Source: an uncultured Bacilli bacterium (lineage in GTDB: Bacteria > Bacillota_I > Bacilli_A > RF39 > UBA660). From it: a DNA stretch of 44,167 nt. A model generated the notes under the pieces. The model made no database searches and had not been told where the DNA came from. It saw only the letters and a list, made by a program, of their open reading frames with translations. The number at the start of each line of letters is the position of its first letter. Position 1 is the stretch's first letter. Shown here in pieces: positions 17,839-22,537 of this stretch. The stretch covers positions 1 through 44,167 of the forward strand of contig CANQZD010000045.1 in NCBI GenBank assembly GCA_947628275.1, read 5' to 3'. The translations under genes and the position numbers were made by a program.

Positions 17839-18745
17839 GCCAATCAATTTTTTCAATTTGCCCATAAAAAGCTATTATTTCATAACTTTTCTTTAAAAAT
17901 TCCTCAATTTGGGGAATTTTTTCCATTATCGTAATTAAACAATCTTCACTAACATCATAATTCATCACATTTTCATATAAATCAAAATAATAACTTGGAT
18001 AAATTAATCTTGCATATAACAAACTTAAAGAATATAAATCTAACTTTCGAATCTTTAAATATGTTTGTAAATCTATCAAAGCATCATCAACCGAAACCAA
18101 AGCTTCATTTTTTAAATATTCAGCAATATCTCTAACTTCCCAATCAAAAATTAAATTTAACGGATTATCATAATTCAAATGTTTATTAGGATAATAAACC
18201 CGTTTGTGGCATAAAACTAATTTATTATTAATCGGTTTTAAAGTAGCATTAACTTTATTAACATAACTTATAGCATTTTCTCCAAGACCTGCAAAATAGC
18301 CAAAAGTATTAATAACAACTTTTTTATCTTTTCCTAATTCACCAATTTGATATTCAAAATAATCAATTTTAATACTCCAGAGCCTACCCCAATCTGGTCT
18401 TTCCAAAGATTTATTTTGCAAATTAATAGGTAACATATCCCATATTTTTAACATATCTAATATTGAATATTCCTCAAAAGGATTAGTTAAAGAAAGTAAC
18501 ATATAAGGTTCATTATTATCTAAAATCGTTAATGATTGAAAAACAGTTGGAATAATTTGATGAACAGGATAATTTTTATTAACCAACTCTTGATAAAGCT
18601 TCATTAAATCATTTAATTCAACTAAATTTCTCTTAACCTTAGTTAAATAAAAAAACTGATTATCAATTTTAAAAGAATAATAATTTATTCCTTCCTTAAG
18701 TTCTTCAACATTAATTTTATATTCATATTCAATTTTCTCTTTCAT
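17828..18745 (-). CDS. YutH/CotS-type spore-coat-associated kinase-fold protein (probable)
   Basis: WGRLWSIKIDYFEYQIGELGK, YFAGLGENAISYVN, LVLCHKRV, LIFDWEVRDIAEYLKNEA; close to yutD and yunB. Confidence 0.6.
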   Translation of the reverse strand: MKEKIEYEYKINVEELKEGINYYSFKIDNQFFYLTKVKRNLVELNDLMKLYQELVNKNYPVHQIIPTVFQSLTILDNNEPYMLLSLTNPFEEYSILDMLKIWDMLPINLQNKSLERPDWGRLWSIKIDYFEYQIGELGKDKKVVINTFGYFAGLGENAISYVNKVNATLKPINNKLVLCHKRVYYPNKHLNYDNPLNLIFDWEVRDIAEYLKNEALVSVDDALIDLQTYLKIRKLDLYSLSLLYARLIYPSYYFDLYENVMNYDVSEDCLITIMEKIPQIEEFLKKSYEIIAFYGQIEKIDWLTN

Positions 18746-18761
18746 ATTAAATTATATGAAA
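18740..18761. repeat. 22-bp inverted repeat over start codon of YutH-like gene (copy A)
   Basis: TTTCATAT-TAAATT-ATATGAAA; start codon at 18743-18745. Confidence 0.85.
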
Positions 18762-18783
18762 AAAATCTAAGAAAAATCTTAGA

Positions 18784-19728
18784 TTAAGCAACTTTCTGTA
18801 ACTCTAAACTGGGAGTTGACGATGTCACACCAACTGAATTTTGATAAGCCATTGTTGCAATTTGTTCAGCAGCTTGAGCATTTTTTAAATGATCATTAGC
18901 TTGTTCTTTTAAACTATTAGCTTCTTTAATGGTATCAACTATTTTTTTTTTATAAGTATCAATAATTTTTTCAACTTTTTCTTGATATTCTTTAGTAGCT
19001 GCCGCAATTTCTTGTTGCATCTTATCAAAATCATTTTCTTTTTCTACCGGAATAATTTCTGGACCACTAGTTACTTCATTAACTACAGGACTTTCAATTA
19101 CTGGTGGTGGATTAATAACGCTTTCAATTGCTGGAGCATTACTAGCAAACGGAGTAATTACCTCTTCTTGAGGTTCATTATTAGTAATACTTTCTGGGAA
19201 AGAAAATACTGGTGGAGCCTCCTCAGTTACTACCGGAGTATCAGTAACTACAGGATTAGTAACTTCTGGAGCAAGAGTATCTACAACTGGCATTGAAACT
19301 TCTGAAACAGGTTCAACCAAAGTTTCTTCCTTAGCTGGAATACTATCCTTAACCAAATTTTTAAAATTAGCAATTAAAGGGTCCGTTTGAGCAACCGTAA
19401 GTCCTAAACTACGACCTGGTCCAATATCTGCTTTTACATTTTCAGCACTTATATAATTAATATTCTTAGCATTGTTTTTAATAATATCAACTACTACTGA
19501 TTTAACTTCTGACCAAGCATTTTCATCATTTATTGCCTGATAGACACCATCTTTTTCCCACATAAATTCTAAAACATTATTTCCATTATTCATCTCTTTT
19601 TTATCTAAAATTAAGATTGGAATATTTTTAATATTTGGACGATTATCATCAGCAATTGTAAAATGCGCTACTACTTTTCTTTCTTCAACTTCCCCACTTG
19701 GTCTATTTAATACAACTTTTTCTTTCAT
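18784..19728 (-). CDS. Orphan protein: N-terminal domain, Val/Pro-rich linker, C-terminal coiled coil
   Basis: Intact ORF with GAGAGAGGG upstream; VTNPVVTDTPVVTEEAPPVFSFP... linker then KMQQEIAAATKEYQEKVEKIIDTYKKKIVDTIKEAN. Confidence 0.8.
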   Translation of the reverse strand: MKEKVVLNRPSGEVEERKVVAHFTIADDNRPNIKNIPILILDKKEMNNGNNVLEFMWEKDGVYQAINDENAWSEVKSVVVDIIKNNAKNINYISAENVKADIGPGRSLGLTVAQTDPLIANFKNLVKDSIPAKEETLVEPVSEVSMPVVDTLAPEVTNPVVTDTPVVTEEAPPVFSFPESITNNEPQEEVITPFASNAPAIESVINPPPVIESPVVNEVTSGPEIIPVEKENDFDKMQQEIAAATKEYQEKVEKIIDTYKKKIVDTIKEANSLKEQANDHLKNAQAAEQIATMAYQNSVGVTSSTPSLELQKVA

Positions 19729-19776
19729 ACTTGGAACCCTCTCTCCATTCTAAACATCATTATAGCAAAAAAAGAT

Positions 19777-20064
19777 TTACTCTGCAATATCTTCTTTAGC
19801 TAAAATAAAATATTTGCAACCATATGCACAATAATTATTTAAATAATCATCAACTTTATCAATATCATTTATTTCTTTAAAATTAGGATTACGTCGACTA
19901 TTAAAACCTTTTAATCTTAATTTACCATACGACCAATCACCTAAAATATAATCAAAATCTAAAAAATAATCAGTAATTATCTTTTCAACTTCTTCTAAAA
20001 TAAAACCATCATTAAAATTTCTAAATAAAGTATATACTTGATTCAATAACTCTATCTTTTCCAT
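19777..20064 (-). CDS. yutD: YutD family protein
   Basis: FDYILGDWSYGKLRLKGFNSRRN...LNNYCAYGCKYFILAKE. Confidence 0.85.
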   Translation of the reverse strand: MEKIELLNQVYTLFRNFNDGFILEEVEKIITDYFLDFDYILGDWSYGKLRLKGFNSRRNPNFKEINDIDKVDDYLNNYCAYGCKYFILAKEDIAE

Positions 20065-20074
20065 TATCCACCTC

Positions 20075-20905
20075 TTATGAAATTCTTATTGCTACAATAA
20101 ATAAAGTCAAAACAATCGTTACTACAACACTTACTAATAATAATAAATCTACGTAACCATTACCACTACTAAGACGATTACCATACTTTTTATAATAATT
20201 AACTGCATCTATTAATAAATCACGTTTATTTTTATCATTTTCATCAATCTTAAAGAAAGCATAAACTTTATGATTAGCTTCCTCTAATTCTTCAGAATTC
20301 ATTTTAGAAATCTCTTCAACTGTATAACCTAAAAGTAAATAAGCATCAATAAACAATGTTGTTTTTTTTATTGGTGACAAATCAAAAGTATGTTCACTTA
20401 TATAATTTTGTCTAGCATAATAATAATCTAAGCATGCCTTATCTTGTAAATAATAATTTGTATAATCACTTAAATATTCATTAGTACTTAAACATAATAA
20501 CTTTTTAAAATTGTTTTCTTCATCATCTTTTAAACCTAACTTTTTTTTCTTTAAAAAGAACATATCAATTAAATATTGTTCAATTTTTACTAAAAAAATA
20601 TTAGGTCTTTGTTTAGATGTATACCAAAAAGAATTAAAACATTTTTTAAAATCTTCTAATTTTTCTTTACTAAAACCATATTTCATAATATTATCATCAA
20701 AACCATTTTGACCGCTTATATTTTTATTTAAATATGGATTAATAATCTCTAATTCGCCATATATTTCAACTAACGTTCGAATAACAATCACAGGAAAAGA
20801 TAATGAACTAGAAAGATTTTGTTCTTTAGTTGCTAAAAAATTTTCAATAGCCATGGTAAATTCTTTACTTATAAACTCTTCATTTCCCATATTCTTATTC
20901 ACCAT
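20075..20905 (-). CDS. Orphan protein with C-terminal TM anchor
   Basis: Intact ORF; C-terminal VDLLLLVSVVVTIVLTLFIVAI. True start may be Met at 20890 (GGTGA upstream). Confidence 0.75.
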   Translation of the reverse strand: MVNKNMGNEEFISKEFTMAIENFLATKEQNLSSSLSFPVIVIRTLVEIYGELEIINPYLNKNISGQNGFDDNIMKYGFSKEKLEDFKKCFNSFWYTSKQRPNIFLVKIEQYLIDMFFLKKKKLGLKDDEENNFKKLLCLSTNEYLSDYTNYYLQDKACLDYYYARQNYISEHTFDLSPIKKTTLFIDAYLLLGYTVEEISKMNSEELEEANHKVYAFFKIDENDKNKRDLLIDAVNYYKKYGNRLSSGNGYVDLLLLVSVVVTIVLTLFIVAIRIS

Positions 20906-20910
20906 TATAA

Positions 20911-21627
20911 TTATACCATATAAAAATCATTTTTGATACTACTACTTTTAGTAATTAATTCATTTCCATACCAATTAGGCACAGTCCCATTAATTACTTT
21001 GGCCCCCAACATAATCGTAAAATTTAAATCATGATCTTGATAATCAACCGGAGTAATTAATTCATAATTTATTGATATTTCTAAAAACACTTCAACCAAA
21101 GCATTATTAATTCCATAATTAGTCATCTTTGTTTTAACATTAGTAAAAACCGAATTAACAAAATGAAACAATACCGGAATTCGCGGGCCAAGATTATTAA
21201 AAAAAACATAATCACTAACTATTCCCATTGGTAACATTAATAAAACCGTATTTTCTTCAGAAAAATTATTTTTACCTAAATATTTAAAATAATTATTTTG
21301 TTTAGCTTTATTTACATTACTTAACAACTCTTTAGTAACCGTATCCGCTAAATGATATATCTCTGTCATTTTATAATCAACCGTTAAAATTTCTTGCTTA
21401 TCATTTAAATTAACCACAAATAAATCATCAATTTCAACATTTAATAAAGACTGATATTCACTAGCAATAGCATTAATCGTTTTAGTAAACTCTAAATTAG
21501 CAACATGACTTAATTTAGGACTTACCTTTTTATTAAAACCATTTAAAAAAAAGCCAGTTAATATCCCAATTCCTAACATATATCCAAATATTGATAATTT
21601 TACTAAAGTTTTATGTTTTATTTTCAT
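20911..21627 (-). CDS. yunB: Sporulation protein YunB
   Basis: N-terminal TM; LMLPMGIVSDYVFFNNLGPRIPVLFHFVNSVFTNVKTKMTNYGINNALVEVFLEISINYELITP; INGTVPNWY. Confidence 0.85.
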   Translation of the reverse strand: MKIKHKTLVKLSIFGYMLGIGILTGFFLNGFNKKVSPKLSHVANLEFTKTINAIASEYQSLLNVEIDDLFVVNLNDKQEILTVDYKMTEIYHLADTVTKELLSNVNKAKQNNYFKYLGKNNFSEENTVLLMLPMGIVSDYVFFNNLGPRIPVLFHFVNSVFTNVKTKMTNYGINNALVEVFLEISINYELITPVDYQDHDLNFTIMLGAKVINGTVPNWYGNELITKSSSIKNDFYMV

Positions 21628-21643
21628 ATTAAATCATATGAAA
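21622..21643. repeat. 22-bp inverted repeat over start codon of yunB (copy B)
   Basis: TTTCATAT-TAAATC-ATATGAAA; differs from copy A at one spacer base; start codon at 21625-21627. Confidence 0.85.
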
Positions 21644-21648
21644 AAAAA

Positions 21649-21660
21649 GGTTTTAAAACC
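21649..21660 (-). terminator. Terminator of preceding gene centred on its stop codon
   Basis: GGTTTTAAAACC palindrome then T8 on minus strand; TAA at 21653-21655. Confidence 0.65.
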
Positions 21661-22537
21661 AACCTAATTTCAAAAAATCATTTAAGAATAATACTATTCC
21701 GGTAATAATTGCTAAGAAAATTATTACAATCAAAACTTTAACAACTATTCCCCCAATTTTACTTGACGAATCAACATCTTCAAAAGTATCAAAATCACTT
21801 TTATCAAAAGTCATACTATTAGTATAAAAGCTTTTATCAATCTTTCCTGTTTTATCTTTATCTTCTTCATTATCTTCAATTATAACCGTTAATTCTGTTT
21901 TAGGAATTTCTAATTTTTTTTCATCTTTATTATCAATTTGCATTTGTTGAGTAAACTCTTGAGCACCAACTACAACAGTATCATCATCACCCTTTAAATC
22001 ACTTAATATTTCTAAAGGATCTGAACCATCTTGCTCAATTTGCTTTTTTTGATTTTCATTTAATTTAATGGTATTAATTAATTCTAATAGTTCATCTTTT
22101 GTTTTCTTACTACTAGCCTTATCTTTATCTTCATCTAAATCAAGATTTTTCAAAATATCATACTGTGTATCACGAACCTTTTTTAAACGTTCTTCTTGAT
22201 AGTCAACCTCTTTTGCTTCTCTAGCCTTTTCCAAAATAGCATTTATATCATATTCTCGAGTTTTTTCTAATTCATATTGGTCTAAAGATTCTTCTTCTTT
22301 AACCATTTCTACACTTCTTCTTTTAGGAATATCTTGATAATTCTTTTCTAAAATTTCTTTAATTTTATCAATATCCATTTGATTAGAATTATCGCCAATT
22401 ACTTTAGCATTTAAACCTATTGATAGATTTTCTAACTCACTATCTTTAATTTCTCTATATAATTGTTCATTCTTTCTTGTTCTTTTCGGTACAAAATCTA
22501 CGTTATCATCATTATATTTTTCAACTCTTGTTTTCAT
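21653..22537 (-). CDS. Orphan tail-anchored protein with long charged/coiled-coil N-terminal region
   Basis: Intact ORF; charged and low-complexity, C-terminal IGGIVVKVLIVIIFLAIITGIVLFL; AAAGGATAGG upstream. Confidence 0.8.
   Translation of the reverse strand: MKTRVEKYNDDNVDFVPKRTRKNEQLYREIKDSELENLSIGLNAKVIGDNSNQMDIDKIKEILEKNYQDIPKRRSVEMVKEEESLDQYELEKTREYDINAILEKAREAKEVDYQEERLKKVRDTQYDILKNLDLDEDKDKASSKKTKDELLELINTIKLNENQKKQIEQDGSDPLEILSDLKGDDDTVVVGAQEFTQQMQIDNKDEKKLEIPKTELTVIIEDNEEDKDKTGKIDKSFYTNSMTFDKSDFDTFEDVDSSSKIGGIVVKVLIVIIFLAIITGIVLFLNDFLKLGWF

Follow-up and report, generated by a model that had tools for sequence, protein, structure and literature searches.

The promoter of spoIIID in C. 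difficile has been mapped as a sigma-E promoter of the form ATA-N16-CATATATA, and YunB (CD0782) and YlbJ (CD1168) of the same organism are among the genes lowered in a sigE mutant (PMC3789822). Leaderless genes were surveyed in 2011 by an approach that detects sigma-70-like promoters only, and in Firmicutes they were found chiefly in Lactobacillales and Mycoplasma (PMC3160421). Maps of transcription start sites list 15 leaderless mRNAs in C. difficile (PMC7438776) and 28 in B. amyloliquefaciens FZB42 (PMC4634765). RF39 has been predicted to be a spore former with a reduced gene set, in a study that makes no mention of promoters, yunB or yutH (PMC10868615). No report connecting leaderless transcripts with sigma-E or with any conserved spore gene was found in the limited open-access literature searched, which is not proof of absence. 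Here we analyzed a 44,167-nucleotide stretch of DNA (the window) from an uncultured RF39 bacterium, in which two nearly identical 22-bp inverted repeats lie over the start codons of two minus-strand genes, a yutH-like gene and yunB.

Both 22-mers are most probably leaderless promoters of sigma-E, the mother-cell factor, pushed directly against their genes. As an earlier note on this DNA had described, they differ at a single spacer base, are perfect 8-6-8 inverted repeats and contain the ATG-AAA of their open reading frame (ORF). The spore-linked identities proposed for the two genes were also supported: the YutH-like protein matched TIGR02905 (E 4.8e-25, 88 bits, under the curated cut-off), and YunB matched PF09560 above the cut-off and TIGR02832 below it (E 2.6e-25, 89 bits). 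No Shine-Dalgarno (SD) site was found ahead of either ATG, as the note had claimed. At both genes the -10, CATATRAT in common form, is followed by 5 nt, the conserved TTAAT, and then the ATG. Because of this arrangement, RNA polymerase carrying sigma-E would initiate on the first base of the start codon, the A, and yield an mRNA with neither leader nor SD site, and the leaderless yutH and yunB mRNAs would be translated from their 5'-terminal AUG.

The spacing of the -10 is conserved. The orthologue set comprised same-genus genomes, 80 named relatives and further loci. Upstream regions of same-genus yutH and yunB orthologues align on the ATG, and a check of the orthologue starts showed agreement on the start codon. 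Most same-genus yutH orthologues have CATA at -13, in the layout hairpin, 6-8 T, CATATAWT, 4 nt, T, ATG. CATA exactly 13 nt before the ATG was found in 29/102 distinct yutH upstream regions and in 50/70 of yunB, counts that lean upward because, among alternative starts, one with CATA at -13 was preferred. When all candidate ATGs were scanned identically for every ORF in the loci taken from genome contigs, CATA...T at -13 was present at 24/34 yunB and 11/79 yutH genes and at 3/676 other ORFs. All 79 selected promoters have T at -1, and most have A at -3. The element persisting across many species is CATAnnnT-TTAnT-ATG at a constant distance, preceded by a weak ATA 15-16 nt upstream, as in a sigma-E promoter. 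Among all fetched loci, in which yutH and yunB are over-represented, an ATG 13 nt after CATA...T opens 109 long ORFs, compared with 0-4 at 9-12 nt, and a second broad group of ORF starts lies 22-28 nt after this motif. The start codons of long ORFs at 13 nt were 112 ATG, 1 GTG and 2 TTG (n=115). This conservation bears out the suggestion of a leaderless promoter.

In its own genome, the placement is rare. A sample of 395 kb, roughly 40% of the genome, with 346 ORFs of 80 aa or more, showed SD motifs peaking at -8 to -14, and SD initiation is the rule; CATAnnnT at -13 occurred only at yutH and yunB. A CATA-type -10 was found 23-27 nt before the genes for SigK, SpoVE, YqfC, GerXA-like and GPR-like proteins, CotE and a D-Ala-D-Ala carboxypeptidase, which corresponds to leaders of 10-14 nt, and most of these sporulation genes have an SD site. 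Thus the leaderless placement is specific to certain genes and is no rule of the regulon. The presence of the same element ahead of other sporulation genes, together with its conservation at -13, agrees with the reading of CATATRAT as a sigma-E -10. The genome also encodes a SigE-like protein (G000:C24:6415-7095), the best spore_sigmaE match at 292 bits and E 7.5e-88, which lies below the curated cut-off here as in all 37 genomes of the genus; a separate SigK-like match lies at C8:11515-12192. This SigE-like factor would presumably read both promoters.

At the -35 position, 18-19 nt ahead of the C of CATA, an excess of ATA is seen in yutH (26-37%) and spoIVA (39% at the best offset), which fits the ATA-N16-CATATATA arrangement of C. 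difficile spoIIID; yunB shows a weaker ATA peak of 15% at the same distance. In the window, a strict sigma-E -35 was not found in either copy, and the observation that neither gene has a convincing -35 held, with ATT at yutH and GTT at yunB where relatives prefer ATA.

These poor -35s weigh against a sigma-E assignment, and other points do so as well. The yutH -10, CATATAAT, includes TATAAT, so sigma-A could read that copy. The same -10 stands mostly before 10-14 nt leaders with an SD site. The start at the A of the ATG is a prediction from sequence. The orthologues are related sequences, partly picked for CATA at -13, and raw counts overstate their independence. We weighed the possibility that the housekeeping factor sigma-A reads these as leaderless promoters, as in Lactobacillales and Mycoplasma, where leaderless sigma-70 genes have been reported (PMC3160421). 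The perfect TATAAT of the yutH copy would suit it. However, there is no TTGACA and no TG ahead of the -10, and yunB orthologues keep CATAnnnT rather than TATAAT, with only about 55% T and about 55% A at the positions after CATA. Furthermore, other genes in the own-genome sample show no comparable TATAAT peak at the leaderless distance, and the genes bearing the element are sporulation genes. We consider sigma-A an improbable reader.

The symmetry of the 22-mers had raised the possibility of a spore-regulon operator, and this part of the earlier note did not survive the comparison. If a dimeric regulator of spore genes bound an operator lying over the start codons, perfect 8-6-8 symmetry in two copies would be accounted for. 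However, the full inverted repeat is kept in only 13/29 yutH and 3/50 yunB promoters with CATA at -13, and the palindrome is thus not conserved. Of the eight arm pairs only one, -9/-2, is free to vary, the others being set by ATG-AAA, the -10 and the T at -1; the remaining bases of the right arm are thus fixed by the start of the gene. At the free pair, complementary bases were found in 16/29 yutH promoters (shuffle mean 13.2, p 0.11) and 21/50 yunB promoters (16.2, p 0.054), a slight and non-significant excess over the two genes taken together (37 observed, about 29 expected), and -2 is A in only about half. In many yunB promoters CATA is followed by A, G or C (CATAA, CATAG or CATAC) and the T-tract is absent; these lack the CATAT arm, yet their -10 and spacing are unchanged. 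An operator is therefore highly improbable. Judging from the orthologues, the 22-letter mirror repeat is most probably a side effect of promoter and start codon and not a regulatory site. It would arise in the window copies because the T-tract and CATAT meet AT-ATG-AAA: TTTCATAT, the T-tract plus -10, would by chance be the mirror image of ATATGAAA, which consists of the final two bases of the spacer, the ATG and the lysine codon.

The likeness of the two window copies would follow from a common promoter consensus, approximately CATAnAT-TTAnT, which also follows the -10 at spoIVA, cwlD and leadered yutH. Two near-identical copies within one 3-kb stretch might otherwise suggest coincidence, or an element that is mobile or present as short repeats. 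However, a search of the draft genome (947,542 bases) found the 22-mer in just these two places and not scattered: they were the sole arm matches at 0 or 1 mismatch, and sites with 2 mismatches were at the level of a reversed control pattern. Within the window there was no further match with fewer than 3 mismatches, and the 6 matches obtained when 3 mismatches were allowed are about as many as chance would give (5.0 expected). The shared consensus explains the likeness and the element recurs at the same genes in many species, so we give a mobile element or coincidence next to no chance.

Each repeat directly follows the T-tract of the preceding gene, as had been pointed out, with a good hairpin on the yutH side (9-bp stem) and a short one on the yunB side (5-bp stem, formed around the previous gene's stop codon). 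Where a T-tract immediately precedes the -10 of yutH (71 promoters), a good hairpin (score of 16 or more) ending at that tract was found in 97%, compared with 5% of shuffles, and the stems have many different sequences; in yunB promoters a hairpin was found in 46% (13/28). Therefore the promoter spacer coincides with the preceding terminator, mainly at yutH. In the sigma-E arrangement, the T-tract of the terminator would serve as the spacer and the -35 would fall inside the hairpin. The genes might instead be transcribed by readthrough or from a promoter farther upstream, the CATA motif being incidental, since the upstream genes are on the same strand and the terminator on the yunB side is weak. 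However, a leadered mRNA would have no SD site at either gene, the motif is fixed at -13 while the upstream sequence diverges, and strong hairpins precede yutH throughout, leaving this explanation only a very slim chance. The coordinates of these features are given in Table 1.

Table 1. Positions in the window of the two start-codon promoters, their genes and the adjoining terminators.
Feature	Position	Strand	Remarks
yutH-like gene, putative spore coat kinase, 305 aa	17828..18745	-	TIGR02905
yutH repeat, 22-bp inverted, over start	18740..18761	-	T-tract end + CATAT + AATTTA + ATATGAAA
yutH ATG start codon	18743..18745	-	ATG common to leaderless and SD-leadered orthologues
yutH transcription start, predicted at A of ATG	18745	-	inferred
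yutH -10, predicted sigma-E type, CATATAAT	18751..18758	-	CATA at -13 in same-genus yutH orthologues
yutH -35, expected position, reads ATT	18775..18777	-	in several gene families ATA peaks 19/18 nt before the C of CATA
Intrinsic terminator of ORF 18784-19728	18759..18785	-	stem AATCTAAGA/TCTTAGATT + T-tract; overlaps promoter spacer
yunB, sporulation protein YunB, 238 aa	20911..21627	-	PF09560, TIGR02832
yunB repeat, 22-bp inverted, over start	21622..21643	-	T-tract end + CATAT + GATTTA + ATATGAAA
yunB ATG start codon	21625..21627	-	orthologue comparison
yunB transcription start, predicted at A of ATG	21627	-	inferred
yunB -10, predicted sigma-E type, CATATGAT	21633..21640	-	CATA at -13 in 50/70 yunB orthologues
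yunB -35, expected position, reads GTT	21657..21659	-	ATA favoured there in relatives
Short terminator-like hairpin + T-tract, end of ORF 21653-22537	21641..21665	-	weak

Leaderless placement varies among genes and lineages. By motif, 7/30 cwlD and 3/30 ylbJ loci are leaderless and none of 30 spoIVA loci, which mostly have an SD site; spoIVA was accordingly rejected as an additional leaderless gene. Placement is therefore gene- and lineage-specific. On a tree built from 88 YutH proteins, about 10 changes of the leaderless state are required, of which at least 9 are forced by well supported branches, the count being approximate because leaderless labels were assigned by a simple distance rule. 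It is nevertheless clear that yutH interconverts among leaderless, approximately 4-nt and SD-leadered forms. One genome with a leaderless yutH also carries a second, distant YutH-like gene (L067, G028:C12) with 33% identity and an SD-type upstream region. The spoIVA loci (L305-L334) share a conserved TTAAATGA-like stretch behind the -10, which suggests an extended downstream element in the sigma-E promoters of this group.

A search of 117 genomes of the order with the pattern CATANNATTTANTATGA gave 49 matches in 40 genomes, compared with about 15-20 for the reversed control. Among the matches listed, 30 loci include about ten at yunB and about eight that look like chance. The pattern also opens ylbJ and the genes of YlmC/YmxH, SpoVE/FtsW, YlxY and SpoVB, of a 125-126-aa membrane protein, and of putative DUF368-like and ZIP-like proteins, assigned by look. 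The 125-126-aa membrane protein stands behind the leaderless motif in five genomes (L216, L217, L227, L228 and L241; at about position 1513, in matched orientation); one member was searched, with no hit in NCBIfam and none above the cut-off in Pfam. It is possibly an unrecognised sporulation gene. At another locus (L222) the leaderless motif follows what appears to be the usual neighbour of yunB and the frame ends after 12 codons, perhaps reflecting a broken yunB or an assembly error. In the own-genome sample, four further candidates (L166, L176, L178 and the window ORF ending at 20905) were rejected as leaderless; GGAGG, GGAAGG or GGTGA follows the first ATG, and because of this SD-like motif the true start is probably downstream. 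In the window ORF (20075-20905), the first ATG stands right behind TATAAT, GGTGA follows, and translation probably begins 15 nt downstream, at another ATG.

Taken as sigma-E promoters fused to start codons, the two loci would combine ordinary parts in an unusual arrangement, a reading that is strong as comparative evidence. In a bacterium otherwise dependent on SD initiation, a sporulation-type promoter is apparently joined directly to the start codon. Surveys of leaderless genes based on housekeeping -10 boxes would miss genes driven by alternative sigma factors. The leaderless, nearly leaderless and SD-leadered forms of yutH in relatives offer a natural series on the origin and cost of leaderless genes, and for a large, uncultured group of spore formers the analysis gives a usable sigma-E motif and improved start sites. 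More speculatively, one branch of the mother-cell regulon of this order of uncultured gut Bacilli (foremost yunB, and yutH, cwlD, ylbJ and others in some lineages) might be deliberately leaderless from sigma-E promoters, so that its translation would escape the SD route and could be controlled by the state of ribosomes or initiation factors in sporulation; we hold this to be rather doubtful.

Compared with known systems, the two promoters resemble the sigma-E promoters of B. subtilis and C. difficile in their CATAnnnT -10, in the ATA-type -35 at 15-16 nt seen in relatives, and in preceding sporulation genes. However, the -10 here lies 5 nt before the ATG, with no predicted leader, no SD site and degenerate -35s. 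They also resemble the TANNNT leaderless genes of Actinobacteria, Deinococcus-Thermus, Lactobacillales and Mycoplasma, in which the -10 lies about 12 nt before the start and no SD site is present (PMC3160421, PMC12340547). Those genes are numerous and carry sigma-70 Pribnow boxes, whereas here a sporulation-type -10 would serve a small number of spore genes in a genome that uses SD sites. A further likeness is to the spore-forming Firmicutes with rare leaderless or near-leaderless transcripts, which are likewise few in genomes that otherwise use SD sites.

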